A stretch of 64,000 nt of DNA, taken from Asaia lannensis NBRC 102526 (GTDB lineage: Bacteria > Pseudomonadota > Alphaproteobacteria > Acetobacterales > Acetobacteraceae). Shown here one piece after another: positions 10,003-64,000 of the stretch (position 1 is its first letter; each line of letters opens with the position of its first letter). Under the pieces are notes generated by a model that was not told where the DNA came from, did no database searches, and was given only the letters and a program-made list of their open reading frames with translations. The stretch covers positions 1 through 64,000 of the forward strand of contig NZ_JAMXQU010000001.1 in the NCBI RefSeq assembly GCF_024054035.1. The letters run 5' to 3'. A program made the translations under genes and the position numbers.

Positions 10003-10503
10003 TCAGCCTTGCTGGCAGGACGCGCAAAGCCCTTCGACCTCGACGGTGGCCTGATGGGGTTTGAAGCCGATCCGGCTGGCGGCAGTGGCGATGGCGAGAG
10101 CGATCTCCTTGTCCTCGACTTCGCTGACTGCGCCGCATCCGCTGCAGATCATGAATTGCGCACGGTGACCGCAGCCATGACCGTGGTGACAGTCCAGACG
10201 ATGGGCACAGCCGATGAAGGCGCTCATACGCTCGATACGGTGGATCAGGCCCTGAGACAGAAGGAAATCGAGCGCGCGATAAACGGTAGGCGGCGCGGCA
10301 TTGCGCTGATAGCGCCTGAGATGATCGAGAATGTCATAAGCCCCGACGGGTTTGGGGCTTTCCAGGATCAGGCCGAGCACGAGCCGTCTTGTGTCGGTCA
10401 GCCGGCTGGCGCGTGTGGCACAGAAGGCAGCCGCGCGGTCGAGCAGCGTCAGCGTCTCGGCAGAGAACGGATCCTGTTCGGTCGTCGCCTCAAGGGTAAC
10501 CAT
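10003..10503 (-). CDS. zur: Fur-family zinc uptake regulator Zur
   Basis: 166 aa Fur superfamily repressor. An N-terminal winged helix (about residues 30-95, with PPTVYRALDFLLSQGLIHRI) is followed by a dimerisation domain with the metal site HRLDCHHGHGCGH and the structural-zinc cysteine pairs CSGCG and CASC. It is divergent from a ZnuABC-type importer and a palindrome typical of Zur boxes lies between, so Zur rather than Fur/Mur is the best assignment. AAAGGA lies 9 bases upstream of the ATG. Downstream genes on the same strand may be read through from it. Confidence 0.88.
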   Translation of the reverse strand: MVTLEATTEQDPFSAETLTLLDRAAAFCATRASRLTDTRRLVLGLILESPKPVGAYDILDHLRRYQRNAAPPTVYRALDFLLSQGLIHRIERMSAFIGCAHRLDCHHGHGCGHRAQFMICSGCGAVSEVEDKEIALAIATAASRIGFKPHQATVEVEGLCASCQQG

Positions 10504-45779: not shown

Positions 45780-46837
45780 GAGTGTTTTCCCCTCAATCTG
45801 GCTCGTATCCAGCGGCGGTGAAGAAGTTGGCGCATTCTGCGGGCGCGACCTGATCGATGAGCTTGCCGATCATGTCCCAAAGCCCGTCGCTGGTGTGCTC
45901 GGCGGCGCGGCGGAGATGAGCCTTGAGTTTGGAAAACGCCATCTCGATCGGGTTGAAGTCCGGGCTGTAGGGTGGCAGGAACCGTAGGCTGGCTCCGGCG
46001 GCCTCGATCGCCGCCTGCACGCCCGGCCCCTTGTGCGAGCTGAGATTGTCCATGACGACGATGTCGCCGGGGCGCAGATCCGGCACGAGGACACGTTCGA
46101 CATAGGTCAGGAAAGCTCTGCGGCCGTTGATCGGTCCGTCCAGCACCATGGGGGCCACGATGCCGATCAGCCGCAGTCCCGCGATGAACGTTGTGGTCTT
46201 CCAGTGCCCGTGCGGCACGGCGGATCGTAATCTCTGCCCCGGCCGACAGCGACTATGACGTCACGCCATGTTGGTCGAGGCCTAGGTTTCATCAATGAAA
46301 ACCAGTCGCTTGGGGTCGAGATCGGGCTGGGTATCAAACCAGTCCCGCCGTCGCGTCAGGACATCCGGACGGTCCTGCTCCGCCGCATGGGCAGACTTTT
46401 GTTCCATGTGATCTGGTGGCGCGCGAAGACGCCCCACAGCGTGCCAATCGCGAAATGGTAGCCACCCTCAGCCAGCCGGATACGGATTTCGGCAAGGGTC
46501 AAGTCGTCCTGCGCCGCGATCAGGGCATGGATCCAGTCGGCCTGTGCTTCGATCCTGTGTAACAGTCGATCCCCACCGCGTGGCTTTGCTGCGGGGCTGC
46601 CAGTCGACGCGGTCAGGACACACCAGCGAACGGCACTCGCCGGACTAACGCCGAAGCGCTCGGCAACCTGCCGGCGGGACAGGCCCTTTGAAACCGCCGC
46701 AACAACGCGGGCGCAAAAATTTAGAGACAGGGTGTGTGACGACATCCAGCGCCGACCTCCATCCCGGCCGTCATCTTGAATCAGATCACACCCAGATTGA
46801 GGATCCCCAATGCTTCAATCAGCAAAGAAAAGTGCTC
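45780..46837 (-). mobile_element. IS630-family insertion sequence, decayed
   Basis: Ends GAGTGTTTTCC (from 45780) and GAAAAGTGCTC (to 46837) are imperfect inverted repeats, flanked on both sides by TA inside CTAG, the expected TA target duplication of IS630/Tc1 elements. Length about 1058 bases. The single transposase gene on the minus strand is inactivated. Confidence 0.8.
45793..46745 (-). pseudogene. IS630-family transposase, inactivated
   Basis: The N-terminal helix-turn-helix part is at 46356-46745 (SLNFCARVVAAVSKGLSRRQVAERFGVS...). A one-base deletion in the ITWNKSLP region shifts the frame; the correct frame continues SAHAAEQDRPDVLTRRRDWFDTQ. Then FIDET is followed by TAG in place of the family Trp and, after ASTNMA, TGA in place of Arg. 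The rest (45793-46218) is intact, with [10 protein letters not shown] and [20 protein letters not shown] carrying the second Asp and Glu of the DDE triad. Confidence 0.88.
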
Positions 46838-49088: not shown

Positions 49089-49898
49089 TCAGCCCGGAAA
49101 GGGGCGCCATGTGGTGACATAACGCATGAGTGTGAGAAGCACGGTCTGGGTCTCTCCAAGTCTGCTCTCATCGATTGTCCACGGGGGCTGTTCCTGCGCC
49201 ATATAGGTGCTTTGGGCCATTTCCATCTGGATGGCATGGATATTGCGTGAGGGCTGACCGTAATGACGGGTTGTGTAGCCGCCCTTGAACCGCCCGTTAA
49301 CGATGGTGGTAAGGCGGCTTTGGCCAGCAAGGAGCGTGCTCAGCGCGTTCGTCAGGTGGACATCGCAAGATGCCCCGTCATTGGTCCCAAGGTTGAGGTC
49401 AGGCAATTGCCCCTCAAAAAGCCGGGGCACGAGCGAGCGTATGGAATGCCCGTCCCAGAGTAAGGCCCAACCCCATATGTTGCGCAGTCTCTCGAGTTCT
49501 GCCTCCAGGGCTGCGTGATAGGGTTTCCAGTATGTTTCGAGACGATGGGCGATCTCATCCTCTCCCGGAATTTCACCGGGGCGATAGAGATCTTCGCCGT
49601 CAAAGCTGAATTCTGGCACCAGCCCGGTTTTCGGTCGGCCGGGATACAGCGTGGCATCATCAGGCCCACGATTGAGATCGATGACATAGCGGGAATATCT
49701 CGCTGCAATGACGCCCATACCCAGATCAGGGGCAAAGTCATAAATACGCTCCATATGCCAGTCCGTATCGGGTCGGGCCAGGCCAGTAGCGCTCATGCGC
49801 GCCTCCATGCCCGGGGCCAGAAGCGTGCCATTATGCGGTAGCGCGATCAGGACCGGGGACTCGCCGCGTGTCAGGGTAAAAACGCTCGTTTCGCTCAT
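49089..49898 (-). CDS. hutG: N-formylglutamate deformylase
   Basis: 269 aa zinc-dependent amidohydrolase of the N-formylglutamate amidohydrolase family. Converts N-formyl-L-glutamate to glutamate and formate, last step of the HutF branch. Motifs: LIALPHNGT (about 17-25), DLNRGPDD, WDGHSIRS and GRFKGGYTTRHYG. Follows hutF by 46 bases on the same strand, so hutF-hutG form an operon. No strong ribosome site precedes the ATG. Confidence 0.92.
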   Translation of the reverse strand: MSETSVFTLTRGESPVLIALPHNGTLLAPGMEARMSATGLARPDTDWHMERIYDFAPDLGMGVIAARYSRYVIDLNRGPDDATLYPGRPKTGLVPEFSFDGEDLYRPGEIPGEDEIAHRLETYWKPYHAALEAELERLRNIWGWALLWDGHSIRSLVPRLFEGQLPDLNLGTNDGASCDVHLTNALSTLLAGQSRLTTIVNGRFKGGYTTRHYGQPSRNIHAIQMEMAQSTYMAQEQPPWTIDESRLGETQTVLLTLMRYVTTWRPFPG

Positions 49899-49944
49899 GG
49901 CCCGGTTTCCTGTCTCTCTTTCTGACGTGTTCTGGGGGGAGTGC

Positions 49945-51324
49945 TCAATGATGCAGCCTTGTCACTACACGCCGGAAAGCATCAGCTATGATCCTCTCCC
50001 GGGCATGATGACCGCTTTCGATGACCCATTCTCCCGCGACCAGCATATGCTGCACCGGCAGGCTCGGACGGGCAAAGAGTGCGCCATCGAAAATCGCGTC
50101 CTGCTCAAGCCCGGGCAGGGCCATGGCTTCAGGGTCGAGAACGCAGAGATCGGCTCTCATGCCGGGGGCCAGCCTGCCGCCATTCTGCTGGCAGGCCTGT
50201 GTCCCGCCTTTGAGAGCCGCTTCGTAGAGATAACGTCCGACCGATCCGAGCATGTCGTCCGGCAGGGCGCAGCAGCGTTTTCGGCTCACAAGACGGCGGC
50301 CGTATTCGAGAAGGCGTAGTTCTTCCGACACCGATGGCAGGATATTGCTGTCCGTTCCTATTCCGAAACGACCGCCTTGGGTAATATAGGATTCCAGGGG
50401 GAACAGCCCGTCTCCAAGATTGGCTTCCGTGATAGGGCACAACCCAGCAACCGCCCCAGACGCCGCAAGCCGGCGCGTTTCATCCTGATCTAGATGGGTG
50501 GCATGGACCAGGCACCAGTGCCGGTCGATCGGTACCTCATCGAGGAGCCATGCCACAGGACGTCTGCCAAGGTAATCCAGGCAGTCGGCAACTTCTTTCT
50601 GCTGTTCAGCGACATGAATATGGATCGGCATGTTTTTGCCGATCATTCCGAGCATGCGGTTCAGACTCTCCCTGTCGACGGCGCGCAGGGAATGTAGCCC
50701 CAGGCCTGCCTTGACAAGGGGATTACCCTTGTGCCGCGTCTCGAGGGTCTCAAGTATGGTTGCGATGAATTCGGGCGAACTCGCAAAACGCGCCTGCTCG
50801 GGGGCCAGCGCCTTGCCGAACCCTGCGTGCCGGTAGAGCGTCGGCAACATGGTCACGCCAATGCCCGTATCCTGTGCAGCCTGAACGACAGCGAGGGCCA
50901 TCTCCGCCTTGTCGTCGTAGGCGTTTCCGTCGGGCCCACGATGCAGGTAATGGAACTCGCCCACTTGGGAAAAACCGGCCTTCAGCATCTCGAGATAAAG
51001 CTGGGCTGCGATGATGCGCATATCTTCCGGCGTGATGCGCGATGCGAGCGCATACATCTGCTTGCGCCATGTCCAGAATGAGTCGACGGGATGGCGGCGT
51101 GTCTCCGCCAGTCCTGCCATGGCGCGCTGGAACGCGTGAGAATGCAGGCTGGCCAGCGGCGGTACAACAATGTCGACGACCCGATCGCTTGCACGGGGTG
51201 TTTCATAGACGTCGATATGAGTGAAATGCCCCCCCTCCCATTGCAGGCGCACGTCATGACGCCAGCCACCGGGCAGGAAAGCCTGCTTGGCGAAAACCGC
51301 GCAGGGAGACGACATTTCAGACAT
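49945..51324 (-). CDS. hutF: Formimidoylglutamate deiminase
   Basis: 459 aa amidohydrolase releasing ammonia from N-formimino-glutamate to give N-formylglutamate, so the five-step hut route applies. Metal ligands: LHSHAFQRAMAG (about 59-70), GEFHYLHRG, IHIHVAEQ, VHATHLD and GIGTDSN. ATG 51324 has GGAG nine bases upstream. Divergent from hutI; a HutC-like site lies between. Confidence 0.93.
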   Translation of the reverse strand: MSEMSSPCAVFAKQAFLPGGWRHDVRLQWEGGHFTHIDVYETPRASDRVVDIVVPPLASLHSHAFQRAMAGLAETRRHPVDSFWTWRKQMYALASRITPEDMRIIAAQLYLEMLKAGFSQVGEFHYLHRGPDGNAYDDKAEMALAVVQAAQDTGIGVTMLPTLYRHAGFGKALAPEQARFASSPEFIATILETLETRHKGNPLVKAGLGLHSLRAVDRESLNRMLGMIGKNMPIHIHVAEQQKEVADCLDYLGRRPVAWLLDEVPIDRHWCLVHATHLDQDETRRLAASGAVAGLCPITEANLGDGLFPLESYITQGGRFGIGTDSNILPSVSEELRLLEYGRRLVSRKRCCALPDDMLGSVGRYLYEAALKGGTQACQQNGGRLAPGMRADLCVLDPEAMALPGLEQDAIFDGALFARPSLPVQHMLVAGEWVIESGHHARERIIADAFRRVVTRLHH

Positions 51325-51424
51325 CAGGAACTCCGCAGGATGAGATCAGAGGGAAGGTTCCGGAGCCGGATGCTCCGGCATGGAACGTGTTACGACTACC
51401 GTTGCGCGTTAACGTTATCATAAC

Positions 51425-51444
51425 TAGACATGTATAGATAAGTC
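51425..51444. promoter_or_regulatory. HutC-like site between hutF and hutI
   Basis: AGACATGTATAGATAAGTCA shares ACATGTATA with the perfect palindrome in front of hutU and the core spacing of known HutC operators (CTTGTATnTACAAG type). Its right half is degenerate. It is centred in the 149-base divergent promoter region. Confidence 0.55.
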
Positions 51445-51473
51445 AGGTCAAGCGGGCTAGGAGTTGAGCAACG

Positions 51474-52718
51474 ATGTGGGACAGGCTCTGGATCAATGCG
51501 CATCTTGCGACGCTAGCGCCCCATGTGGATCATCACGATATCGAGACGGAATCCGGCTTGTTGCGCGATGGTGCGATTGCGGTCGAACAAGGCAGGATTG
51601 CCTGGATAGGATCACGTTGCGACCTGCCCGGCGCACCCGAGACCCTGTCGAACGAGGTAATCGATTGCCGGGGAGCATGGATTACGCCGGGGCTGATCGA
51701 TCCGCATACCCACCTCGTCTATGCCGGCGACAGAAGCGAGGAGTTCTCCGAACGACTCTGCGGTGTGTCCTATCAGGAGATCGCCCGACGCGGCGGGGGA
51801 ATACTCTCCACTGTGAGAGCCACGAGGGCTGCGAGCGAGGACGAGCTTTTCGCGCTCTCCGAAAAACGAGCCAAGCGGCTCATGGCGAATGGTGTGACGA
51901 CACTGGAGATCAAATCCGGCTACGGACTGACGCTTGAGGATGAACTCAAGCAATTGCGCGTGGCGCGTCGTCTGGGTTCCGAACTCAGGCTGCGCGTGCA
52001 TGTGAGCTTTCTTGGTGCTCATGCCTTGCCGCCTGAATTCGTCGGTCGTCGTGAAGCCTATCTGGGGCATCTTTGCACCGACCTCCTGCCTCAAATCGCA
52101 GCTGGAGGACTCGCAGATAGCGTGGATGGTTTCTGCGAAGGCATTGCTTTTCAGCCTCATGAAATCGAGCGTCTGTTCATCACAGCGCGGGATCTCGGTT
52201 TCACACTGCGTCTTCATGCTGATCAGCTTTCCGATCTGGGCGGTGCCTCGCTTGCTGCGCGGCTGGGAGCACTCTCTGCCGATCACGTGGAATACGCCCA
52301 TGAGGAAGGTATCAGGGCCATGGCGGCGCAGGGTACGGTGGCTGTTCTTCTGCCGGGGGCCTTTTATTTCGTCCGCGAAGACAAGCTGCCCCCTGTGGAG
52401 GCTTTCCGTGCGCATGGTGTGCGCATGGCGCTTGCGACGGATTGCAACCCCGGCACTTCGCCTTTGCTGTCACCCACGGCCGTGATGAACATGGCCTGTA
52501 CCCTGTTCCGGCTGACACCGCGCGAAGCGCTGGACGGCCATACGCGCCACGCGGCCGCTGCGCTCGGACTCTCGGCAACCTGCGGTATGCTGGCGCCTGG
52601 AATGGCTGCCGATATGGCGCTCTGGGACATCACCGCCCCTCACGAGCTCGCATACTGGATCGGCGGGGTGATGCCTGTGGGACGTGTTTTCGCCGGCGTT
52701 CCGGATCAGGTTCTCTGA
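51474..52718 (+). CDS. hutI: Imidazolonepropionase
   Basis: 414 aa amidohydrolase hydrolysing imidazolone-5-propionate to formimino-glutamate. Zn/Fe site DPHTHLVYAGDR (about 77-88), HVSFLGAH, LRLHADQL and ATDCNPGTSPL. Starts ATG 51474 with AGGAG ten bases upstream. First gene of the plus-strand series hutI-hutC-hutU-hutH. Confidence 0.95.
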   Translation: MWDRLWINAHLATLAPHVDHHDIETESGLLRDGAIAVEQGRIAWIGSRCDLPGAPETLSNEVIDCRGAWITPGLIDPHTHLVYAGDRSEEFSERLCGVSYQEIARRGGGILSTVRATRAASEDELFALSEKRAKRLMANGVTTLEIKSGYGLTLEDELKQLRVARRLGSELRLRVHVSFLGAHALPPEFVGRREAYLGHLCTDLLPQIAAGGLADSVDGFCEGIAFQPHEIERLFITARDLGFTLRLHADQLSDLGGASLAARLGALSADHVEYAHEEGIRAMAAQGTVAVLLPGAFYFVREDKLPPVEAFRAHGVRMALATDCNPGTSPLLSPTAVMNMACTLFRLTPREALDGHTRHAAAALGLSATCGMLAPGMAADMALWDITAPHELAYWIGGVMPVGRVFAGVPDQVL

Positions 52719-52829
52719 TAGGGGGCAGCGCGGCCGGGAGTAGGAAGGTTATGATCCCGTGCTAAAGACTGGCGAGCCGGGTATGACCGGTATAGACATC
52801 TGGCCTGGGCAGAAAGGGGATGCAAGAGG

Positions 52830-53555
52830 GTGACCATATTGCTGGGCAAGGACAAGCCGGCCGCACGTTACGAGCAGGTCAAATCATACATCCTCTCCCG
52901 TATAGAGACGGGAGAATGGGAGGTCGGGCACAGGCTTCCTTCCGAGAGTGAACTCGTCGACCTTCTCGGTGTGTCACGCATGACTGTGCATCGTGCCCTG
53001 CGCGAACTGACCGTCGATGGCGTGGTTACTCGTGCACAGGGTGTGGGCACCTTTGTGGCCGAGCCGCTCAAGCGTGTCGAGTTGCTTGAATTGCGCGATA
53101 TCGCAGAGGATATCGTTTCGAACGGCCACACCCACACCACGCGCGTCATCACGCTGGGCTCCATCCGGGCCGATAGCGACCTAGCCATGGCTTTCGGTCA
53201 GCGCCCCGGCGCACGGCTCTTCCATTCGATCATCGTTCATCTCGAAGACGGTACGCCGCTTCAGGTTGAGGAACGCTTCGTTTCGCCCCATTTTGCCCCC
53301 GATTATCTGGAGCAGGATTTCAGCCTGTCCCACCCGCACCGGCATCTTTCCTCGATCTCGCATCCCGAGGAAATCGAGCATGTCGTCTTTGCTGTCACGC
53401 CCAGTCAGGAAACATGCGATCTGCTCGACCTCGAGGCGCCCGAGGCCTGCCTGCAACTCATGCGTCGCACCTGGGTTGATGAGCGCGTGGTGATGAAAGG
53501 CATCTTCACCTATCCCGGGAGCCGCTACAGCTTCGTCGGGCGCTATCGCCCCTGA
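52830..53555 (+). CDS. hutC: Histidine utilisation repressor HutC (GntR family)
   Basis: 241 aa. GntR winged helix (about 10-78: RLPSESELVDLLGVSRMTVHRALRELTVDGVVTRAQGVGTFVAE) and a UTRA effector domain that binds urocanate. Typical HutC sequence HHxxGxP replaced by HLEDGTPLQVEERFV. Start codon is GTG 52830 with AAGAGG directly before it; TTG 52839 is an alternative. Sits inside the hut locus and probably represses all four operons that carry the palindromes listed here. Confidence 0.9.
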   Translation: MTILLGKDKPAARYEQVKSYILSRIETGEWEVGHRLPSESELVDLLGVSRMTVHRALRELTVDGVVTRAQGVGTFVAEPLKRVELLELRDIAEDIVSNGHTHTTRVITLGSIRADSDLAMAFGQRPGARLFHSIIVHLEDGTPLQVEERFVSPHFAPDYLEQDFSLSHPHRHLSSISHPEEIEHVVFAVTPSQETCDLLDLEAPEACLQLMRRTWVDERVVMKGIFTYPGSRYSFVGRYRP

Positions 53556-53767
53556 ACGGGGGCGATATCTAGCGAGCCTCGTCGTACACGTCCCAGATTT
53601 CCGTTTTCTTCTGTCTGTACCCGGATCGCCATCCCGCCCATGTGCATGTTCGCTCTCACGGCATCTGGGACTCACGAAAGACACGCCGAGCCGGGCGATG
53701 CATTGGGATGTCATTCTCAAATCGTGACGATTTTTGATTGACAGAAACAGTTCTTATGACACACCTT

Positions 53768-53785
53768 AACATGTATATACATGTT
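53768..53785. promoter_or_regulatory. Perfect HutC operator upstream of hutU
   Basis: AACATGTATATACATGTT is an exact 18-base palindrome, 17 bases upstream of the GTG start of hutU. It covers the upstream ATG at 53781, which argues against that ATG being the start. It is the best of the four HutC-like sites and fixes the motif. Confidence 0.8.
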
Positions 53786-53801
53786 TGGGTCAGGAGATGT
53801 C

Positions 53802-55493
53802 GTGAGCGCCCAGGATTCCTTGCCAGCTAGGCTGGCCAATGACAGGATTATTCGCGCGGCCCATGGGCCGGAACTGACAGCGCGGTCATGGCAGACCGAG
53901 GCGGCGCTGCGCATGCTGATGAATAATCTTGATCCCGATGTGGCCGAGAAGCCCTCAGAACTGGTAGTTTATGGCGGTATCGGTCGCGCGGCCCGCAACT
54001 GGGCCTGCTATGACGGGATTGTGCGTGCCCTGACCGATCTGGACGCCGACCAGACGCTGCTCGTCCAGTCGGGCAAGCCGGTCGGGGTGTTTCGTACCCA
54101 TCCCGATGCTCCCCGTGTTCTAATCGCCAATTCCAACCTGGTACCGCACTGGGCGAATTGGGATCGGTTTAATGAACTCGACCGGGCCGGGTTGATGATG
54201 TACGGCCAGATGACTGCAGGGTCGTGGATCTATATCGGCAGTCAGGGCATCGTGCAGGGGACATACGAGACCTTTGTCGAAATGGGGCGGCAATACTATG
54301 GGGGCTCGTTGCGCGGCCGCTGGATCCTGACGGGAGGTCTGGGCGGGATGAGCGGTGCACAGCCTCTCGCCGCGGTAATGGCAGGCGCCTCGATGCTGGC
54401 CGTCGAATGTGAGCCGAGCCGTATCGAGAAGCGCCTCGAAACGGGCTATCTCGACCGAAAGACGGACTCGCTCGACCAGGCGCTCGAATGGATCGATGCA
54501 GCCTGCAAGGCTGATATGCCGATCTCGGTCGGGTTGCTGGGTAACGCTGCGGAGATTTTCCCCGAGCTTTTGCGTCGTGGCGTCCGTCCCGATGCCGTGA
54601 CCGACCAGACATCGGCCCATGATCCACTGAACGGCTATCTGCCCGCAGGGTGGTCGCTCGATCAGGCAGCTCATAAGCGCGTGACAGATCCTGCTGCCGT
54701 AGAACGCGCCGCCAAGGACTCCATGCGCCTTCAGGTCGAGGCCATGGTGGCATTTCATCGTATGGGTGTCCCGACATTCGATTACGGCAATAATATCCGG
54801 CAGATGGCCTTCGAGGTCGGATGCGAGGACGCTTTCGCTTTCCCGGGTTTTGTCCCGGCCTATATAAGGCCGCTCTTCTGCCGCGGCATCGGCCCCTTTC
54901 GCTGGGCTGCCCTCTCTGGCGATCCCGAGGATATCTACAAGACGGACGCCAAGGTCAGGGAACTGCTCCCGCATGACACGCATCTGCACAACTGGCTCGA
55001 TATGGCGCGCGAGAAGATCCAGTTCCAGGGTCTACCCGCACGCATCTGCTGGGTCGGACTCGGCGATCGCCACCGGCTCGGTCTTGCCTTCAACGAGATG
55101 GTCGCAAGCGGTGAGCTCAAGGCCCCTGTCGTGATCGGTCGAGATCATCTCGACAGCGGTTCTGTCGCCAGCCCGAACCGCGAGACCGAGGCAATGAAGG
55201 ATGGGTCGGATGCCGTTTCCGATTGGCCCTTGCTCAATGCCCTGCTCAACACGGCGTCTGGCGCCACCTGGGTTTCGCTGCATCATGGCGGCGGCGTGGG
55301 AATGGGTTTCTCACAGCACGCGGGCATGGTTATCGTTGCCGACGGAACAGCGGAGGCAGCAAGCCGTCTGGAACGTGTGTTGTGGAACGACCCCGCGACC
55401 GGTGTCATGCGTCATGCCGATGCGGGCTACGATATCGCCAGAGACTGTGCCCGGGAACAGGGTCTCACCCTGCCTATGATCGACGGAGCCTGA
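53802..55493 (+). CDS. hutU: Urocanate hydratase
   Basis: 563 aa NAD-containing enzyme converting urocanate to imidazolone propionate. Family features: [42 protein letters not shown] (NAD binding), [23 protein letters not shown], and [14 protein letters not shown] with [13 protein letters not shown] near the end. GTG 53802 is chosen because AGGAGA lies six bases upstream and because the ATG at 53781 is inside the operator; family length is about 556. Stop is 6 bases before hutH. Confidence 0.95.
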
Positions 55494-55499
55494 TCCATC

Positions 55500-57047
55500 A
55501 TGAAACCTGTTTTCACTCTCGTTCCCGGCGCTCTCGATCTGGCATCCCTGCGCAGCTTTATTCTCGACAAGCCCGAAATCGTCCTCGAGGCCGGCACCGA
55601 ACCCTGCCTGCGCGAGGCCGCGCGTTCGGTCGAGCGCATCGTGGCGGGCGGTGCAGCCGTCTATGGCGTGAATACCGGCTTTGGCAAGCTGGCCAAGACG
55701 CGTATCCCTGATGAGAAGCTGCGTGATCTGCAACGCAACCTTGTGCTCAGCCATGCCGCAGGGATCGGCAAGCCTCTGGCGGAGCCGGTCGTGCGACTTA
55801 TTCTGCTGCTGAAGGCTAATGGGCTGGCGCGAGGCTATTCGGGTGTGCGGTACGAGATCGTCCGTCTGCTGCTCGACATGCTCAATCGCGGGGTTATTCC
55901 CGTGATTCCGGAAAAAGGGTCGGTTGGGGCATCGGGTGATCTCGCGCCTCTAGCTCATATGTCGGCAGTTGTTATCGGCGAGGGAGAGGCCTTTTTCGCC
56001 GGTGAGCGTCTGCCGGGCGCCGTAGCTCTGGAGCGCGCCGGGCTGAGGCCTATCGAACTCGGGCCGAAGGAGGGGCTCGCTCTTCTCAATGGCACGCAAA
56101 CCTCGACGGCTCTGGCTCTGATCGCCCTTTTCGAAGCGGAAACCCTTCACCAGACCGCGCTTGTGACTGGCGCGCTGACCCTCGATGCCGCACGGGGAAC
56201 GGATGCTCCCTTCGATCCGAGGCTTCATGCTCTGCGCGGCCAGAAGGGCCAGATCGAATGTGCTGCCATCTATCGGGCACTCATGGCCGGCTCTGCCATA
56301 CGTGCGTCACATGAGGTGGACGATGAGCGCGTGCAGGATCCTTATTGCCTGCGTTGCCAGCCTCAGGTCATGGGGGCAGCGCTGGACTCATTGCGCCATG
56401 CGGCTCACGTCCTGCTGATCGAGGCCAATGCGGTGTCAGACAACCCCATCCATTTCCCCGATACGGACGAAATGATCTCTGGCGGTAATTTCCATGCCGA
56501 ACCTGTAGCCATTGCGGCCGATCTGATGGCGATTGCCGTATCAGAAATCGGAGCGATTGCGGAGCGCCGTCTCGCCCTGCTGGTGGACCCTGGCATGAGC
56601 GGATTACCGCCCTTTCTGGTCAATGACAGTGGCGTCAATTCCGGCTTCATGATTGCCCAGGTCACGGCAGCAGCCCTTGCTTCTGAAAACAAGACGCTCG
56701 CCCATCCTGCAAGCGTAGACAGCCTGCCTACTTCAGCCAATCAGGAAGACCACGTGTCGATGGCGACATTCGCGGCGCGCCGTGTCGGTGATATCAACGA
56801 GAATGTACGTACTATTCTCGGCATCGAATATCTTTCTGCCGTGCAGGGGCTCGATTTCCTGGCCCCACTGCGTTCCTCCGAGCCGCTGGTCGCGGCGGCC
56901 GCCCTGCTGCGTGAGACCGTGCCGTTTTTCGCGCAGGACCGGCTTTTCACGCCCGACATGGAGGCTGCCAATGCGCTCATTGCCTCAGGCGCGCTTGTCA
57001 AGGCAGCGAGCCAATCGCTGAAACTACCCACACTCGACGCCGCATGA
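55500..57047 (+). CDS. hutH: Histidine ammonia-lyase
   Basis: 515 aa. Converts L-histidine to urocanate and ammonia. The MIO cofactor tripeptide Ala144-Ser145-Gly146 lies in [12 protein letters not shown]; Tyr55 (VYGVNTGFG) is the conserved catalytic tyrosine. Other family motifs: [29 protein letters not shown]. Co-translated with the next gene through ATGA at 57044-57047. Confidence 0.96.
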
Positions 57048-58204
57048 AGGGGGTGATCGCGCCGGATGACGGCGCTTTCAAGATCGAGGCAGCGCGAGCG
57101 CGCCGTCGTTTGCCTCGCCTGTTTGCAGATTATCTCGATGGTGGCGCCCATGGTGAGAAGACAATTCTCGCCAATCGGGCCGCTTTCACGCGCTGGTCCC
57201 TTCTGCCTCGCGGGTTGCGCGATGTATCCTGTATCGATCAGAAGACCACCTGTTTCGGCATGGCTCTGAACGCGCCTGTCCTGCTCTCGCCGGTTGGTTT
57301 TGCCGGGCTGTTTCATAGCGACGGGGAGATTGGCGCGGCGCGGGCCGCGGAAAGATGCGGGATTGCCTCGGCGCTTTCGAGCTTCTCCATCCATTCTCTG
57401 GAGGAGGTGGCGACGGTAAAGGCGCCTCTCATGGCCCAGCTTTATATCCTGCGTGACCGTGGCGTGACACAGGATATGCTCGACCGGGCCGCGGCAAGCG
57501 GGGTCGGGACGCTTGTTCTGACCATCGATACCGCTATCACGCCCCTGCGCCCGCGCGACATTCGGAACGGGTTTCGTAACCGTGTGCGCCCCAGTCTCGG
57601 CCAGAGTATGGGTCTGGCGCGGCACCCGGCCTGGCTCCTCGACCGGTTGCGGGCGACACGCAACGATCTGGGGACGATGGGGCGTTATACTGGCGCGCGC
57701 GGTATCATGGCGCAGGCCCGTGACATTGCATCCCGGATCGATCCCGCTCTCTCATGGGCCGATCTGGAGACGTTACGGGCATGCTGGAAGGGCCGCCTCG
57801 TTCTCAAGGGTGTGCTCCATCCTGATGATGCCCGGCAGGCGGTTTCCTGTGGCGTGGACGGGCTGATCCTGTCCAATCACGGCGGTCGACAACTGGACCC
57901 TGCACCATCGCCTCTCACCATGCTGCCCGAGATACTGGACGTCACGCAGGACCGGCTCGAAGTTGTGCTGGATGGCGGGGTGCGTCATGGCGGTGATGTC
58001 GTCACGGCGCTTGCGCTGGGTGCGCGGGCCGTTTCGCTGGGCCGGCCATGGGCTTGGGCTCTGGCTGCGGCCGGAACGAAAGGTATCGAGACCGCCCTGC
58101 AGCGTTTGATTCGCGAGACGGCGGATTGCATGGCGCTCACCGGGCTGTGCACAATCCGGGCGCTACGCGAGGCAGGCCGGACTGCGCTTCATTCTGCAGG
58201 ATGA
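57044..58204 (+). CDS. FMN-dependent alpha-hydroxyacid dehydrogenase (LldD/glycolate oxidase family)
   Basis: 386 aa TIM-barrel enzyme oxidising L-2-hydroxy acids to 2-oxo acids. FMN and substrate residues: [11 protein letters not shown], Lys255 (LVLKG), catalytic His279 in SNHGGRQ (277-283) and [10 protein letters not shown]. Tyr of the usual N-terminal substrate site appears as [12 protein letters not shown]. It overlaps hutH by four bases, so it belongs to the hut operon. This suggests a histidine-derived hydroxy acid such as imidazole-L-lactate as substrate (inference); a general L-lactate dehydrogenase is the alternative. Confidence 0.85.
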
Positions 58205-58208
58205 GTGT

Positions 58209-59159
58209 TCAGCCCTGCCGGGGTTTTTGCGAGTCTCGTATGCGTCCCATGATGTAATCCCCGGCGGAGACGGGTAGATAAAGGGCGTCTGTCCCGGCTG
58301 GCAGGTTGAGATCGTGCGGATCGATCCGGGCGTCGTAATCCGGGTCGTAGAATGTGGCGAAAGACACACGCTCGCGCCCGGAGCGATTGGTGACGCGATG
58401 CATGTTCGAGACATAGCGCCGGTTCGACCACCGGCACAGAAGGTCGCCGATATTGATAACGAGCGTTCCCGGAATCGGCGGCGCGGGCATCCAGGCGCCA
58501 TCCGGGCCCTGCACATCCAGCCCTCCGGTGTCATCCTGCCAGAGCAGGGTAATGCAGCCGTAATCCGTATGAGGAGCCACGCCGAACTGATCCGCCTCGC
58601 GTTCCGGCGGGTGGGGCGGGTACCAGATGGCCTGACTGCGCTGCAACGGTCTGACATAGCGGGTGACAAAGAAATCGGGCGAGACCCCGAGCGAACAGGC
58701 GACAGCGCGAAGAAGCACCTGCCCGCACACGCCTACGGCCCCGAAATAGGCCTCCATGGCGGCGCGGAAATCTGGCCGTCCCTCAGGCCAGAGATTGGGG
58801 CCGCGCAAGGGCTGGCCCGCGAGGACGAGGGGATGATCCTGCGGCAGATCGAGCCCGATCTGGAAGAATTCCTTATAATCCGGGTTGGCCGCACCATACA
58901 TGGTGGTGCGGTTGAGCGCGTTGAAACCCCTCACGGCCTGATGGGGCTTGCAAAGAAGCTTTTCTTCCACGGGGGCATGGAAAAAATCGAGCGCCTCGCG
59001 ATGGATCCGTTCAAGCAGGCTTTCCGGAATGCCGTGGTTTCGTACGTAGCAAAACCCCGATTGCGAAAAGGCGGCATTGATGGCGCGCCCTGTCGCCTCA
59101 AGATCGCCGGCACGAGCCGGGGCAAGATCGATGACTGGAAGATAGCCAATATCGTTCAT
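58209..59159 (-). CDS. Isopenicillin-N-synthase-like 2OG/Fe(II) oxygenase
   Basis: 316 aa. N-terminal DIOX_N region (INAAFSQSGFCYVRNHGIP) and a C-terminal double-stranded beta-helix with the iron triad HTD (in APHTDYG, about 197) and His of MHRVTNRSGRERVSFA, where RxS binds the oxo-acid. Last gene of a minus-strand operon (aminotransferase - FAD oxidase - HutD - this), 24 bases after hutD. Substrate unknown; in this setting perhaps a histidine-derived compound. Confidence 0.87.
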   Translation of the reverse strand: MNDIGYLPVIDLAPARAGDLEATGRAINAAFSQSGFCYVRNHGIPESLLERIHREALDFFHAPVEEKLLCKPHQAVRGFNALNRTTMYGAANPDYKEFFQIGLDLPQDHPLVLAGQPLRGPNLWPEGRPDFRAAMEAYFGAVGVCGQVLLRAVACSLGVSPDFFVTRYVRPLQRSQAIWYPPHPPEREADQFGVAPHTDYGCITLLWQDDTGGLDVQGPDGAWMPAPPIPGTLVINIGDLLCRWSNRRYVSNMHRVTNRSGRERVSFATFYDPDYDARIDPHDLNLPAGTDALYLPVSAGDYIMGRIRDSQKPRQG

Positions 59160-59183
59160 GAAAAGGCTCCGTCGGATTGAGGG

Positions 59184-59756
59184 TCAGGAAGGTGGGATCA
59201 AGGCGGCGAGGCAGAGCGGGGCCTGTGGCCCGGAAGATGCCATCGGGGAAATGTGCAGGGGCGTATCGCCTGCGACAATCTTCCCCTGAAGGACGCTGCC
59301 CGGGCCGAATGCTGGTCCCCGTCCGGCGACATGCCATGGGCCTCTCAGGGGAAGCAGGGTGAAATGCACGGTATGGGGCAGTGGGAAAGGCGTCTCATGG
59401 GCGCGCAGAAGGGCAGGCTGTCCGTGCGAAGCCATCAGATTGAATGCCATGACCGGGCCGGAGGGGCAGGCCGCTGTCACGACCATGGCTCCGTCGAAGC
59501 TCAGAATGGCTCCGGCACTGTTGAGATGATGAGGGCAGTCGCCTTCGGTGTTCAGGATCAGATTGCCAGGCGAGGCAAGGGCGAGATGGCGCACGAGGCC
59601 CGGAAAGGACGAGAACGGACCATCCCCCTCGATCGAGGCAAGGCTGACCCGCCATGTCCCGCCCTGTGTATCACCCCGAGCCAGTTCGCGGGTACGACCC
59701 TGACCGTTCTTCCAGTCCGTCTCCGGGAAGGTGGTGAGGTCGTGGAGCGCGATCAT
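59184..59756 (-). CDS. hutD: HutD family protein
   Basis: 190 aa cupin-like HutD protein. The signature WKNGQGRTRELARG (usual W-N-GGGxTREL) followed by WRVSLASIEGDGPFSSFPG is clear. HutD is found in hut operons and proposed to act as a governor limiting the pathway; its biochemistry is unresolved. Overlaps the FAD oxidase by four bases (59753-59756). Confidence 0.9.
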   Translation of the reverse strand: MIALHDLTTFPETDWKNGQGRTRELARGDTQGGTWRVSLASIEGDGPFSSFPGLVRHLALASPGNLILNTEGDCPHHLNSAGAILSFDGAMVVTAACPSGPVMAFNLMASHGQPALLRAHETPFPLPHTVHFTLLPLRGPWHVAGRGPAFGPGSVLQGKIVAGDTPLHISPMASSGPQAPLCLAALIPPS

Positions 59757-61150
59757 GGTCGTGCTGCGGGGAAGATCTTGCCGGGGTTGAGGATGTTTTT
59801 TGGATCGAGCGTGGCCTTGATGCTGCGCATCACGTCGATAGAGACCGGATCATGTTCCTGCGGGAGGTAGTCACGTTTGGCCAGTCCCACCCCATGCTCG
59901 CCGCTTGCAGACCCGCCCAGAGAAAGGGCGCGGGCGATCAGTCTGGCGTCGAGATCATGGGCGCGCGCCAGAGCGTCTTCCCCCGGTGGCACGAGCATGA
60001 CCGTGTGGAAATTACCATCGCCGATATGGCCAACGATCGGCGCGGTAATGCCTGATGCCTTGATATCGCTCTTAGCGCCCAGAATCATCTCGGTCAGGGC
60101 GGATATGGGCACGATGGCATCTGTTGAAATGCCGACATGGCCGGGACGAAAGGCGAGACAGGCCCAGTAGACGGCATGGCGGGCCTTCCAGAGTGCGGCG
60201 CGCTCATCATCGCGCGTGCTCCAGGCGAAGGAAGCTCCCCCGTTATCCATACTCAGGGCCTCGATCGTGCCGATCTGCTCCGCCACGGCCTGCGGGCCGC
60301 CGGAAACCTCGAAAAACATGGTGGGCACGGGGCGATAGGAATCGAGCTTCGAGTAGTCGATGCAAGCCTGCATCTGCACGTCGTCGAGCAGTTCCATGCG
60401 CGCAACCGGCAGGCCCATCTGCATGACCTGCACTGCAGTCTCGACACACCCTGCAAGGGTTTCGAACTGGCAGATGGCCGCGGCCGTGGTTTCAGGTATT
60501 CCCTGCAGGCGGAGCTGTATTTCGGTGACGATCCCGAGTGTTCCCTCCGAACCGATCATGAGATGGGTCAGGTCATAGCCCGTGGCTGATTTGCGCACGC
60601 GCCCCCCGGTCTGCATGATGCGCCCATCGGCCAGCACGATAGTCAGGCCCAGCACGTTTTCGCGTATGGTGCCATAGCGTACAGCCCCTGTCCCCGAGGC
60701 GCGTGTGGCGCACATACCGCCTATCGTTGCCTCGCCACCCGGGTCGACCGGAAAGAAAAGTCCCAGATCACGCAGATGCAGGTTCAGGGCCTGACGGGTC
60801 ACCCCGGCCTGAACGCGACAATCGAGATCATTCTCGTGGACCGCAATAATTGCCGTCATGCGCGACAGGTCGAGCGATACGCCACCCTCGACAGCATTGA
60901 GCTGCCCTTCGAGCGATGTACCGCCGCCGAAGGCCACAACGGGCAGGTTGTGGGCGTTGCAGAATGCGAGGGCCTGCGAGACCTCCTGTGTCGACTCGAC
61001 ATAAAGAACGGCATCGGGCGCATGGGCGGCGTGATAGCCCTCGCCGTGGCTGTGCTGTTCCAGCAGGGAGGGGCTGCGCGAGACCCGCCCGGGAAAAAAG
61101 GTGTCGAGTTCGGCGACAAGTCGGATACGGTCTGGCGCAGAGGGTCTCAT
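59753..61150 (-). CDS. FAD-linked 2-hydroxyacid oxidase (GlcD / D-lactate dehydrogenase family)
   Basis: 465 aa. PCMH-type FAD-binding domain (VAFGGGTSLEGQLNA about 72-86; GGMCATRASGTGAVRYG) and a C-terminal substrate domain with IVGHIGDGNFH and SGEHGVGLAKRDYL. Oxidises D-2-hydroxy acids and passes electrons to quinone or cytochrome. The ATG 61150 follows the aminotransferase stop by one base (TGA-A-ATG), so translation is coupled; a longer frame overlapping that gene is ignored. Paired with an L-specific FMN enzyme in the hut operon, suggesting both enantiomers of a histidine-derived hydroxy acid are used (inference). Confidence 0.87.
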   Translation of the reverse strand: MRPSAPDRIRLVAELDTFFPGRVSRSPSLLEQHSHGEGYHAAHAPDAVLYVESTQEVSQALAFCNAHNLPVVAFGGGTSLEGQLNAVEGGVSLDLSRMTAIIAVHENDLDCRVQAGVTRQALNLHLRDLGLFFPVDPGGEATIGGMCATRASGTGAVRYGTIRENVLGLTIVLADGRIMQTGGRVRKSATGYDLTHLMIGSEGTLGIVTEIQLRLQGIPETTAAAICQFETLAGCVETAVQVMQMGLPVARMELLDDVQMQACIDYSKLDSYRPVPTMFFEVSGGPQAVAEQIGTIEALSMDNGGASFAWSTRDDERAALWKARHAVYWACLAFRPGHVGISTDAIVPISALTEMILGAKSDIKASGITAPIVGHIGDGNFHTVMLVPPGEDALARAHDLDARLIARALSLGGSASGEHGVGLAKRDYLPQEHDPVSIDVMRSIKATLDPKNILNPGKIFPAARP

Positions 61151-61151
61151 T

Positions 61152-62303
61152 TCAGGGCACTTTCTCAAAGGCGGGTGGCTCGGCAAGGATGGCACGCAGT
61201 GCCACGGTGAAACGCCTGTTTTCCTCATCGAGGCCAATGGAGACGCGTATCCTGTCTGTGAACCCCGGCTCTTTCCAGGGTTTGACGATCACGCCGTGAC
61301 GGAGCAGCGTCTCTGCAACCGGTGCGGCTGGGCAGGGTAGTCTGACAAACAGGAAATTACCGCTCGAGGGAGCGACATCCAGGCCCATGGCTTCGATCGT
61401 GGCTTTGAGGGCATCCCGCGCCCTGACCGTGGCCGCTACGCTTTCGCGCATATGGCTCTCTCCCTCCAGTGCAGCGAGGGCAGCGAGCTGTGCCACAATA
61501 TTGGTATTGAACGGATCACGAACGGCCTCGAGCGCGTTAATCAGGTCCGGGGTGTCACTCAGGGCCCAGCCGATACGCAGCCCCGCCAGTCCCCAGGCCT
61601 TGGAAAACGTACCGAGCACGATCCAGGGGCGGGATTGGCGGCGCAGAACGCGGCGCGCATCCGGGTAATGCGCGGTATGGGCCGCATATTCCCGATAAGC
61701 CTCGTCGATCACGATCAGGCAATCATGGGGGCAGGCAGAGATCAGCGTTTCCAGCTGCGTCTCTGTCATCACGCAACCCACAGGATTGGATGGATTGGAA
61801 AAGATGAGGATACGCGTCGGTTGGGATACCGCAGCGCAGAGGGCCTGGAGATCGAAATCGCATGTTTCGGTGACCGGCACGGAATCGACGACCCCTCCCA
61901 TCGCCACTGCGTTCAGGATATGCAGGCCGAACGAGGGCAGAACGGTCACCACCCTGTCGCCAGGGGAGATTACCCCCTGCATGATCATGCGTATAAGTTG
62001 TTCCGAGCCATTCCCAAGGATGAGCGCCTGCATCCGCTCATCCAGGTAGGTGGCAAGACGCGCGCGCAGCTTCGGTTCTGCTTCGGGATAAAGGGCCAGC
62101 TTGTCGAAAAGGCCGGTAAGGGCTTCGCGCACCTGAGGCGGGGCCCCGTGGGGATTTTCATTGCTTCCGAGTTTGGCGATAGAATTGAGGCCGTATCGTT
62201 CCTTGACCGCATCTGATGCAAGGCCTGCATTATAGGCTGGCAAGGCCGCTATTTCGGGGCGGCAGCATGAGACGGATGACGGGGTTCCAAGGGGAGAATG
62301 CAC
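61152..62303 (-). CDS. HisC-like class I/II aminotransferase
   Basis: 383 aa PLP fold-type I enzyme of the histidinol-phosphate aminotransferase family. SNENPHG (start of domain), NGSEQLI, FSNPSNPVG, DEAYREY (Asp of PLP pyridine) and FSKAWGLAGLRIG with the Schiff-base Lys. The GTG at 62303 is preferred because the HutC-like operator at 62322-62336 would otherwise fall inside the coding region. Being in a HutC-linked operon, its substrate is more likely histidine/imidazole-pyruvate than biosynthetic histidinol phosphate. Confidence 0.85.
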   Translation of the reverse strand: MHSPLGTPSSVSCCRPEIAALPAYNAGLASDAVKERYGLNSIAKLGSNENPHGAPPQVREALTGLFDKLALYPEAEPKLRARLATYLDERMQALILGNGSEQLIRMIMQGVISPGDRVVTVLPSFGLHILNAVAMGGVVDSVPVTETCDFDLQALCAAVSQPTRILIFSNPSNPVGCVMTETQLETLISACPHDCLIVIDEAYREYAAHTAHYPDARRVLRRQSRPWIVLGTFSKAWGLAGLRIGWALSDTPDLINALEAVRDPFNTNIVAQLAALAALEGESHMRESVAATVRARDALKATIEAMGLDVAPSSGNFLFVRLPCPAAPVAETLLRHGVIVKPWKEPGFTDRIRVSIGLDEENRRFTVALRAILAEPPAFEKVP

Positions 62304-62321
62304 GGCCGATATCCAGTTTAT

Positions 62322-62336
62322 GGTTGTATAGACAAG
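62322..62336. promoter_or_regulatory. HutC-like site before the aminotransferase operon
   Basis: GTTGTATAGACAAG (62323-62336), complement CTTGTCTATACAAC, fits the CTTGT-N4-ACAAG pattern of HutC operators with one mismatch. Lies 19 bases upstream of the GTG start on the minus strand. Confidence 0.65.
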
Positions 62337-62443
62337 ACTAACGATATCGACTCGCATCATGCAAGCGCGAAGATTTATAGCGCCTTATATACGATATTTA
62401 TGGTGGTTATTCGCTTTTTCATTACGAAAATCGATTGACCTTT

Positions 62444-62457
62444 CTTGTACAGACAAC
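62444..62457. promoter_or_regulatory. HutC-like site before the PhyH dioxygenase
   Basis: CTTGTACAGACAAC fits the same CTTGT-N4-ACAAG pattern with one mismatch and lies 41 bases upstream of the PhyH start. Together with the site at 62322 it would place the whole divergent pair under HutC. Confidence 0.6.
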
Positions 62458-62497
62458 ATAGGCTTGCTGTCAGATTGTGTCAGGAGATCATGCCGTG

Positions 62498-63304
62498 ATG
62501 ATGTCTGCCTCCCCCTTGTCGTCCGAACTGGTTAATGCTTTTCGTGATGACGGCGTCGTCATTCTGCGTGGCGTTTTTACGCCCTGGATCGAGTCCCTGC
62601 GTGAGGGAATCGATCGGTTGATGGCATCGCCCAGCCCGCTCGAGCGATCCTATCAGCCGACCAACTCGGCACCGTTTTTCCAGGATCTCTGCAACTGGCA
62701 AAGGATCCCGGAATTCCGCGCATTCATAGAAGACTCGTCCCTTGGAGTTCTGGCTGCGTCGTTGATGGGCGCGCGAGAGGCGCGATTTTTCCATGATCAT
62801 GTTCTGGTGAAGGAGCCAGGAACATCGCTCGTGACGCCGTGGCATCAGGACCGTCCCTATTATTGCGTAAGCGGGCCGCAAAGCGTGAGTTTCTGGATTC
62901 CGCTCGACCCGGTGCCCCAGGCGAATGCGCTGCAATGTGTCGCCGGGTCTCACCGATGGGGCGTCGATCACAAGCCCATGCGTTTTGACGGAACGCCCCT
63001 GTATGCGGGCGACGACAGTACGCCCATGCCGGATATCGATGCCGACAGGAGCGCTTACCGGATCGTCTCTGCCGTTATGGAACCCGGCGATGCCGTGGCT
63101 TTCGACTTCGGTACAGTGCATGGAGCTGCTGCGACTCTGGGCGCGGTTACAAGGAGGCGGGTGTTCTCAGCGCGGCTCGTGGGAGATAACGCGTGCTTTG
63201 CCGACAGAGGCGGCAAGGGATCGCCGCCTTTCTCCCATCTGACCCTGCAAGATGGCGAGAAACTAACAGGCCCCGATTTTCCCGTTCTCGCGACGGCGGC
63301 CTGA
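62498..63304 (+). CDS. Phytanoyl-CoA dioxygenase family (PhyH) 2OG/Fe(II) oxygenase
   Basis: 268 aa. Iron triad: His and Asp in TPWHQDRPYY and a distal His in FGTVHGAA; Arg in the RRRVFSARLVGD strand binds 2-oxoglutarate. VSFWIPLDPV and LQCVAGSHRWG are typical PhyH strands. Start taken at ATG 62498 with AGGAGA ten bases upstream; GTG 62495 and ATG 62501 are near alternatives. Its stop is immediately followed by the solute-binding protein start, so they are coupled. Substrate unknown. Confidence 0.86.
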   Translation: MMSASPLSSELVNAFRDDGVVILRGVFTPWIESLREGIDRLMASPSPLERSYQPTNSAPFFQDLCNWQRIPEFRAFIEDSSLGVLAASLMGAREARFFHDHVLVKEPGTSLVTPWHQDRPYYCVSGPQSVSFWIPLDPVPQANALQCVAGSHRWGVDHKPMRFDGTPLYAGDDSTPMPDIDADRSAYRIVSAVMEPGDAVAFDFGTVHGAAATLGAVTRRRVFSARLVGDNACFADRGGKGSPPFSHLTLQDGEKLTGPDFPVLATAA

Positions 63305-64000
63305 ATGGCCGAACCGGCTCCCGTCGCGGCGCGCAGGTCCCGGACAGCCAGCACAACCCGTGCGCACCTATCTCAGTGCCGCTGGCAGGTGGCGCGTCGT
63401 TTTGCGTCCTGCTGTCTTCTCACTTTGGTGGCGTCGGTGACGGGCGTCGCACAGGCAGGGTGTCTTGACACGATACGTGCATCGGGGGTGCTGCGTGTCG
63501 GGAATGGGCTACTTGGCGCCCATCCCTCTCTCTGGCAAAGCCATGACCGGGTATATCACGGTATCGATGCCGACCTTCTGGACGTATTGACGCAACGCCT
63601 CGGCGTGGCGCGTTCAAAATTTATCATCACGGAGTGGCCGACCATGGTGCCCGGGCTCAAGGCGGAGCGCTGGGACATCGTTCTGAGCGACGTCAATATT
63701 ACCGAGGAACGGCGGATACGAGGGCATGTATTGTTCTCGACGCCTTATTTCATGCTCTATGACTATGTGATTGTGCTGGCGGATTCGCCAATCTGGTCTC
63801 TTGCCGATCTTAAGGGCAAGACGATTGCCTCTGTCATGGGGACCAGCGATTCAGCAACTGCGCACCACCTGGTGACTGATGGTGTGGCGGCCGATGTGGC
63901 CGATTTCGAGACGTTCGCCGATCCTTTCACGGCCCTGCGCAACCACCAGGTTGCGGCGGTGATCGTCGATCAGGGAACGCTTCATGCCCAGAAAGCGCAT
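63305..64000 (+). CDS. Amino-acid-type solute-binding protein (family 3), partial
   Basis: 232 codons in frame to the window end. A Tat-like or long signal region (Arg-rich residues 8-34, hydrophobic CCLLTLVASVTGVAQA about 36-51) precedes the mature domain, which has RASGVLRVGN, YHGIDADLLDVLTQRLG, WDIVLSDVNITEERR and DLKGKTIASVMGTSD, all typical of SBP_bac_3 proteins binding polar amino acids. It would supply an ABC importer encoded beyond the window. Begins directly after the PhyH stop (TGA-ATG). Confidence 0.88.
   Translation, partial: MAEPAPVAARRSRTASTTRAHLSQCRWQVARRFASCCLLTLVASVTGVAQAGCLDTIRASGVLRVGNGLLGAHPSLWQSHDRVYHGIDADLLDVLTQRLGVARSKFIITEWPTMVPGLKAERWDIVLSDVNITEERRIRGHVLFSTPYFMLYDYVIVLADSPIWSLADLKGKTIASVMGTSDSATAHHLVTDGVAADVADFETFADPFTALRNHQVAAVIVDQGTLHAQKAH

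Follow-up and report, generated by a model that had tools for sequence, protein, structure and literature searches.

Which compounds would a histidine-utilization (hut) system handle if its genes are joined by those of two hydroxyacid-oxidizing flavoenzymes, a HisC-like aminotransferase and two oxygenases? This question is raised by Asaia lannensis NBRC 102526 (genome of 3.22 Mb in 27 contigs), where the first 64,000 nucleotides of contig NZ_JAMXQU010000001.1, hereafter the window, contain a hut-centred block of 17 genes that begins at position 49089 and ends at ~69790, past the window end at 64000. We propose, with a probability of roughly 0.6, that the block is an extended HutC regulon that would take up and degrade histidine and its 2-hydroxy analogue, imidazole-lactate: both enantiomers of the latter would be oxidized to imidazole-pyruvate, which would be aminated to histidine and degraded by the hut enzymes. 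We infer every substrate, as well as the induction, from the sequences.

In the proposed scheme, uptake would proceed through a TonB receptor, an ABC importer and an NCS1-type permease. A flavin mononucleotide (FMN) enzyme would convert L-imidazole-lactate, and an LDHD-like flavin adenine dinucleotide (FAD) enzyme D-imidazole-lactate, to imidazole-pyruvate, from which the HisC-like aminotransferase would form L-histidine, to be broken down by HutH, HutU, HutI, HutF and HutG to glutamate, formate and ammonia. The units would be turned on by the release of HutC by urocanate, which is known to release HutC elsewhere, and the two oxygenases, of the PhyH and EFE/T7H types, would oxidize or dealkylate other histidine relatives and feed them into the same route. 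An earlier note on this DNA had suggested such imidazole-lactate salvage under hut control; the suggestion has gained from HutC-type sites, from a conserved unit and from the presence of a dehydrogenase/aminotransferase module beside hut genes without the oxygenases and in other lineages, and we retain it in qualified form.

The hut core and its flavoenzymes

The block opens with hutG-hutF on the minus strand, followed on the plus strand by hutI-hutC-hutU-hutH and the FMN enzyme gene; a minus-strand group then comprises, in genome order, a 2-oxoglutarate (2OG) oxygenase, hutD, the FAD enzyme and the aminotransferase, and PhyH and a solute-binding protein are encoded on the plus strand again, with an ABC permease, an ATPase, the NCS1-type permease and the TonB receptor next along the contig. 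The genes named by the earlier note were all recovered in the places and families that it had given, by curated cut-offs in the case of the hut enzymes and HutC and by Pfam for the rest. HutG (N-formylglutamate deformylase, 49089..49898, minus strand; TIGR02017, 342.5 bits), HutF (formimidoylglutamate deiminase, 49945..51324, minus strand; TIGR02022 and NF006684), HutI (imidazolonepropionase, 51474..52718, plus strand; TIGR01224), HutU (urocanate hydratase, 53781..55493, plus strand; TIGR01228, 953 bits) and HutH (histidine ammonia-lyase, 55500..57047, plus strand; TIGR01225) all score above their cut-offs and thus constitute a five-step pathway of the HutF/HutG type, with HutH being the sole PF00221 match in the genome. 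The GntR-type repressor encoded between hutI and hutU (52830..53555, plus strand) is likewise a HutC orthologue by TIGR02018 (263.7 bits against a cut-off of 220).

HutH- and HutU-like enzymes are also employed in the catabolism of ergothioneine or thiohistidine, and a genome of the Komagataeibacter group (G060) possesses such a locus; however, the 953 bits of the window HutU on the urocanate hydratase model compare with 698.1 and 715 bits on the two thiourocanate hydratase models, below their cut-offs of 930 and 880, and the thiourocanate hydratase of G060 (961 bits) sits in a different locus. On these profile scores we reject this reading, to which we accord next to no chance. In the G060 locus itself (L244, C1:2962000-2978000), the thiourocanate hydratase gene, above cut-off, adjoins one that matches HutH distantly, which points to ergothioneine catabolism there.

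As the earlier note had it, hutH overlaps the gene of an FMN-dependent L-2-hydroxyacid dehydrogenase of the LldD/HAO-like type (57044..58204, plus strand; PF01070 (FMN_dh), 395 bits), the overlap being of 4 bases (57044-57047). This protein falls short of the LldD cut-off (285.2 bits versus 550) and aligns to HAO1 with conservation of H279, R282, K255, Y134 and R169, which we take to be catalytic; the FMN_dh domain together with the active-site His, Arg, Lys and Tyr places it in the superfamily of FMN-dependent L-2-hydroxyacid oxidases and dehydrogenases, of which the genome holds three other paralogues. The minus-strand operon pairing the aminotransferase with the FAD enzyme, HutD and the 2OG oxygenase was also borne out, with each family recognized by Pfam. 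The FAD enzyme (59753..61150, minus strand; PF02913/PF01565, i.e., FAD-oxidase_C and FAD_binding_4), whose gene shares 4 bases (59753-59756) with hutD (59184..59756, minus strand; PF05962, 88.6 bits), is an LDHD/GlcD-type D-2-hydroxyacid dehydrogenase: it scores below the GlcD equivalog cut-off, and its best solved relative is a “probable D-lactate dehydrogenase, mitochondrial” (E 4e-136). LDHD and HAO1 are thus among the closest solved homologues of the two flavoenzymes; unlike HAO1 and the mitochondrial LDHD, those of the block are bacterial, are encoded within a hut block and are known here from sequence.

The HisC-like class I/II aminotransferase (Aminotran_1_2; 61152..62273, minus strand, with an uncertain start between 62273 and 62303) misses both biosynthetic hisC cut-offs (TIGR01141, 270.0 versus 276.55 bits; NF003496, 476.2 versus 540), although this test by itself is weak because C2, another HisC-like gene of the genome, also narrowly misses TIGR01141 with 272 bits. 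The block aminotransferase stands apart from the genome's further HisC-like genes. We considered a role in histidine biosynthesis and judge it unlikely, given that a second HisC-like gene scores nearly equally on hisC and that the block enzyme groups with hut- and HutC-linked genes, in a tree whose deeper part is unsure and has long branches.

Recurrence of the hydroxyacid enzymes with the aminotransferase

We fetched 71 loci with the FAD enzyme, one genome per species, of which eight, from five genera, keep the full block with its order and orientation unchanged: three Asaia, Acetobacter garciniae, Gluconacetobacter takamatsuzukensis, Komagataeibacter nataicola, Komagataeibacter xylinus and Brytella acorum. 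The identity per gene across them is 55–99%, except for hutD (35–94%), and the nearest named locus is that of Asaia bogorensis GD-01 (94–99% per protein). NCS1 was not seen in the locus of Asaia sp. W19 (L014), nor was HutG in L014 and L015, whose fetched stretches end near hutF. Of the remaining 63 loci, 46 match the 17 block proteins by the FAD enzyme alone, and most matches in the other 17 are to an ABC ATPase or are distant ones to HutG. On the tree of the FAD enzyme, the hut label requires four gains or losses, at least three of which are forced by supported branches, and these changes would fit repeated recruitment. In one of the loci, from a betaproteobacterial metagenome-assembled genome (L056), we observed matches to hutU, hutC, hutI, hutG and hutF some kb from three GlcD-like genes. 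Within the genus of the window, hutU is likewise missing from all five sampled genomes that gave no PhyH match, which suggests that the hut block comes and goes as a whole.

Other loci show the block in partial or re-ordered form. In two genomes (G324 and G390) of a genus that also has full-block members, hutU, hutH and the FMN enzyme are found together with the aminotransferase, the FAD enzyme, hutD and hutC, along with NCS1 and, ahead of the aminotransferase, an operator-like site (L215 and L216); no PhyH or 2OG match lies within these stretches, and no 2OG match at 1e-80 was found elsewhere in the two genomes. The genome G272 (L117, L242) has a re-ordered block including both oxygenases, in which hutD was not seen. 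A genome of another alphaproteobacterial family (G437; L190/L210), which provides the best aminotransferase match outside A. lannensis among 385 genomes of the class, codes for PhyH, the FAD enzyme and the aminotransferase (65%, 48% and 42% identity, respectively) along with HutH, HutD, HutU, HutG, HutI and HutF across ~29 kb; HutC-type sites lie ahead of PhyH|hutC-like gene, FAD enzyme|aminotransferase and hutH. Directly 3' of its hutH lies a gene (L210:2726-3844) for a Rieske oxygenase weakly related to GbcA (glycine betaine monooxygenase), possibly a histidine betaine demethylase.

Similar aminotransferases are also represented on plasmids, with 164 records matching at 1e-40, including those of Klebsiella (31), Escherichia (18) and Enterobacter (13), where the listed matches have 49% identity. 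We opened eight of these loci. In the E. coli plasmid pYUSHP31-2 (L246, ~11.6–14.3 kb), hutU is represented by an unannotated 3' remnant (138 bits; 81% over a short stretch), flanked by a transposase gene (TnAs1, Tn3-type) on one side and by the HisC-like gene on the other; the latter overlaps a gene for an FMN hydroxyacid oxidase. An Aureimonas locus combines a VanA-type Rieske pair, the aminotransferase, a GlcD-like enzyme, an annotated HutC, an amino-acid ABC importer and HutH; a Rhizobium leguminosarum locus resembles it without nearby hut genes, and in Paracoccus the GlcD-like enzyme beside the aminotransferase is 51% identical to the window FAD enzyme. The loci of Sinorhizobium and two Shinella (L247, L248, L252) have an annotated HutC, which in Sinorhizobium passes the HutC cut-off, and HutC-type sites before the aminotransferase. 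In a tree with six other HisC-like proteins, 17 such aminotransferases cluster as one group (83/93; 86% of bootstrap trees), and a single group (98/98) likewise unites the Pacificitalea FMN enzyme with those of the Acetobacteraceae loci.

From these loci and trees, an FMN or FAD hydroxyacid enzyme seems to have been placed beside this aminotransferase more than once. This repeated pairing is our main argument for steps leading from a 2-hydroxyacid via a 2-oxoacid to an amino acid, and the hut context would make imidazole-lactate, imidazole-pyruvate and histidine the simplest filling of that route. Moreover, the block is modular: the hydroxyacid/aminotransferase part and the oxygenases occur separately with hut.

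Several observations weigh against imidazole-lactate as the substrate. The FMN and FAD hydroxyacid enzyme families are broad, with the best known members acting on lactate or glycolate; since the genome holds no close paralogue of the FAD enzyme, this may also serve D-lactate; and the solved structure that matches the aminotransferase best is that of a putative phenylalanine aminotransferase. The changes on the FAD-enzyme tree could include losses, and a labelled row, L190, is a long branch, while the FMN enzyme of the E. coli plasmid falls, on weak branches, outside the Acetobacteraceae group. The genomes G324 and G390 do carry a distant PhyH match (37–39%) at another locus. No hutC or hut gene was found in the fetched stretches of two plasmid loci (L249, L251), and in four of the eight opened the aminotransferase is partnered instead by a HisD-like dehydrogenase, an SDR and an alcohol dehydrogenase, with an FMN oxidase in one, namely that of Pacificitalea (L250), which also has a UTRA regulator. 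These four loci, from rhizobial and rhodobacterial plasmids (L247, L248, L250, L252), additionally carry a PotD-type importer, and their set possibly serves histidinol or a related compound.

One could accordingly read the enzymes as a general salvage of aromatic 2-hydroxyacids such as phenyllactate and indolelactate, or of lactate, whose placement with hut merely links it to the nitrogen supply. The broad specificity usual in these families, the phenylalanine aminotransferase-like match and the FAD enzyme without close paralogue would all suit such a role, but the recurrence of HutC-type sites and hut neighbours across separate lineages and the presence of three other FMN paralogues in the genome argue against it, and we deem it unlikely.

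Operator-like sites

We scored sites as matches out of 12 to TTGTATATACAA in the 230 bases around each gene start of the eight conserved loci. The best matches are 10–11 for hutU, 10–12 for aminotransferase|PhyH and 9–10 for TonB (10 in five), with weaker values at hutF|hutI (7–9) and hutC (7–8); the internal genes reach 5–8, which is the level of dinucleotide shuffles (means of 6.3–7.6 over all genes). A score of 9 by itself is attained in ~4–10% of shuffled promoter stretches. Scores of 10 or more are reached by 30 sites: two are inside hutI, and the other 28 are found where hutU, aminotransferase|PhyH or, in five of the eight loci, TonB begin. In the window, these are the hutU palindrome ATGTATATACAT (53771..53782), the site TTGTATAGACAA upstream of the aminotransferase operon (62324..62335) and the site TTGTACAGACAA upstream of PhyH (62445..62456), to which the operator of the TonB receptor gene itself (contig positions 67219-67230) and a weak hutF|hutI site (51430..51441; 9 of 12 bases) can be added. 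As the hutU palindrome overlaps the listed ATG, that gene probably starts further downstream. The claim of the earlier note that palindromes precede every unit therefore holds for hutU, aminotransferase|PhyH and TonB and is slightly too strong for hutF|hutI and hutC.

Genome-wide, 22 places have at most two mismatches to the motif, as against 31 for a reversed control pattern, so that it is only their placing, rather than their number, that stands out: four fall inside the ~20.7 kb block, where ~0.14 would be expected by length, among them the sole place with a single mismatch. The GT..TA..AC palindrome before the target units is kept across genomes, as would befit a HutC regulon, and agrees with the consensus of the HutC subfamily, GTMTAKAC, as given in the available text of PMC4494728. 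Thus, through these predicted operator-like sites, the block probably forms one co-regulated HutC-type regulon. Outside genes, HutC-type sites of at least 10/12 (degenerate pattern with GT and AC fixed) are absent from 15 of 28 other loci scanned; these include L183-L186, L188 and L189, so that the motif lends no support to HutC control of the 2OG-hut loci.

The oxygenases, the importers and the wider setting

The PhyH-type Fe(II)/2OG oxygenase (62477..63304, plus strand) has the characteristic domain, fold and HxD...H facial triad, and the second Fe(II)/2OG oxygenase (58209..59159, minus strand; DIOX_N/2OG-FeII_Oxy), of the IPNS/EFE/T7H type, is related to the ethylene-forming enzyme by fold and sequence. 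PhyH matches at 1e-40 occur in 63 of 397 genomes of the family; in six of the 18 non-block loci read (L118-L135, 59–66% identity) hutU lies in the stretch, and L123, the one viewed by profile, has a TRAP importer. In the class, 87 of 385 genomes match at 1e-50, and several hut genes are present in five of the 20 loci read (L191, L193, L194, L195, L198 of L190-L209), with those of L190 lying further along the contig; no hut set was found in the 11 loci of lowest identity (L199-L209), where a single distant HutH match occurs, in L206. In L190, L191, L193 and L198, HutC-type sites lie ahead of PhyH. Plasmid relatives of PhyH (42–49% identity, 22 records) have no annotated hut gene nearby in the two viewed, one of them at the record start. 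Similarly, the 2OG enzyme is matched at 1e-80 in 69 of the 397 family genomes, and the 20 loci read (L170-L189) include hutU in nine, hutC in four more and amino-acid-type ABC genes in 17. Against a background of 150 hutU-positive genomes among 299 sampled (G000-G298), hutU is present in all 34 with a 2OG match at 5.8e-100 or better and in 20 of 21 with a PhyH match at 1.4e-119 or better; Fisher tests on this co-occurrence ignore relatedness, and their p values are too small. Two further loci (L145, L150) combine a distant PhyH (38–42%) and the 2OG enzyme (51–52%) with hut and an importer, and no dehydrogenase or aminotransferase matches are found in their stretches. The two oxygenases are therefore separable add-ons, which the earlier note had not recognized, and would probably bring further histidine relatives into the route.

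A rather doubtful alternative makes PhyH and/or the 2OG enzyme the entry point: by N-dealkylation or N-demethylation they would release histidine or imidazole-pyruvate from modified histidines (methylhistidines, N-carboxyalkyl or betaine forms), and the hydroxyacid enzymes would only recover imidazole-lactate formed on the side. Fold comparisons of both oxygenases, with several rows tied or nearly so, point to no particular substrate, and in L215 and L216 the dehydrogenases and aminotransferase accompany hut without these oxygenases at the locus, which argues that they are not merely side enzymes. More speculative still, and distinctly improbable, is that PhyH and/or the 2OG enzyme hydroxylate imidazole propionate at C2 to imidazole-lactate, either enantiomer of which would be oxidized by the flavoenzymes and returned as histidine by the aminotransferase; as a variant, a direct desaturation of imidazole propionate to urocanate would also fit the PhyH-hut loci without dehydrogenases. 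We also considered the 2OG enzyme as a substitute for HutG, since there are 2OG-hut genomes, e.g., G003 and G330, without HutG above cut-off, and dropped the idea: all 30 genomes searched match the HutG model (five above cut-off), and the window block has both genes.

Regarding the importer, the earlier note had correctly placed PhyH and a family 3 solute-binding protein (63305..64000 and continuing beyond the window, plus strand; PF00497 (SBP_bac_3)) on the opposite strand, and had missed the full ABC system, the NCS1 permease and the TonB receptor beyond the window. On the other flank, Pfam detects a piece of a DDE_3 transposase (45793-46218, minus strand), upstream of which an open reading frame (46356-46745, minus strand), with no Pfam match, resembles by eye the helix-turn-helix part of that transposase. 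Past the TonB gene, in the coordinates of locus L002, there are a phage-type integrase (9027-10175) and a resolvase (16797-17540), as well as a 653-residue open reading frame that is relaxase-like by eye, again with no Pfam match; given these, the hut block may border a mobile region.

The Pseudomonas hut locus with the HutF/HutG branch has the same five-step core, hutC, hutD and transport of urocanate and histidine; to our knowledge, no hydroxyacid dehydrogenases, HisC-like enzyme or 2OG oxygenases have been described in it. A 1973 study (Coote and Hassall) reportedly dealt with the degradation of imidazole-lactate and imidazole-propionate in Pseudomonas testosteroni and, going by its title, treated imidazole-lactate together with histidine degradation; we know of no gene cluster for that work. 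Acetic acid bacteria and lactic acid bacteria occur in the same niches. Among the latter, L. crispatus is reported to accumulate imidazole lactate (2.7–3.6-fold, q 0.1–0.3; PMC8669023), and in the available text of a Drosophila study with Acetobacter and Lactobacillus it appears only as a host metabolite falling under histidine deprivation (PMC7447780). Proteobacterial HutC regulons comprise HutC, the hut enzymes including both HutG types, and HutD, and also list TonB receptors (Caulobacterales, Sphingomonadales), COG1457 permeases and ABC/histidine importers (Leyn et al. 2016, PMC5343134). HutC, the hut enzymes, HutD, a TonB receptor and an ABC importer are thus common to them and the block, whereas the main text of that paper has no aminotransferase or dioxygenase, and lactate only within other regulons. 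We found no published pathway of this composition in the literature searched, which covered few subscription papers; to that extent the statement of the earlier note that none was known holds, with the proviso that imidazole-lactate degradation has, by title, its biochemical literature of 1973.

For imidazole-lactate salvage, the block offers a set of genes and a regulon that can be put to the test. It also leads to the prediction that HisC-like genes beside hutC, which carry the label hisC in annotations of rhizobial and enterobacterial plasmids, code for catabolic imidazole-pyruvate aminotransferases rather than for enzymes of histidine biosynthesis. Imidazole propionate is a microbial metabolite linked to type 2 diabetes (PMC10882135, available text), and its hydroxylation, if true, would be an oxygen-dependent route returning it to the hut pathway. 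More generally, two groups of Fe/2OG oxygenases emerge as repeatedly tied to histidine catabolism, with substrates that may be methylated, alkylated or reduced histidines.

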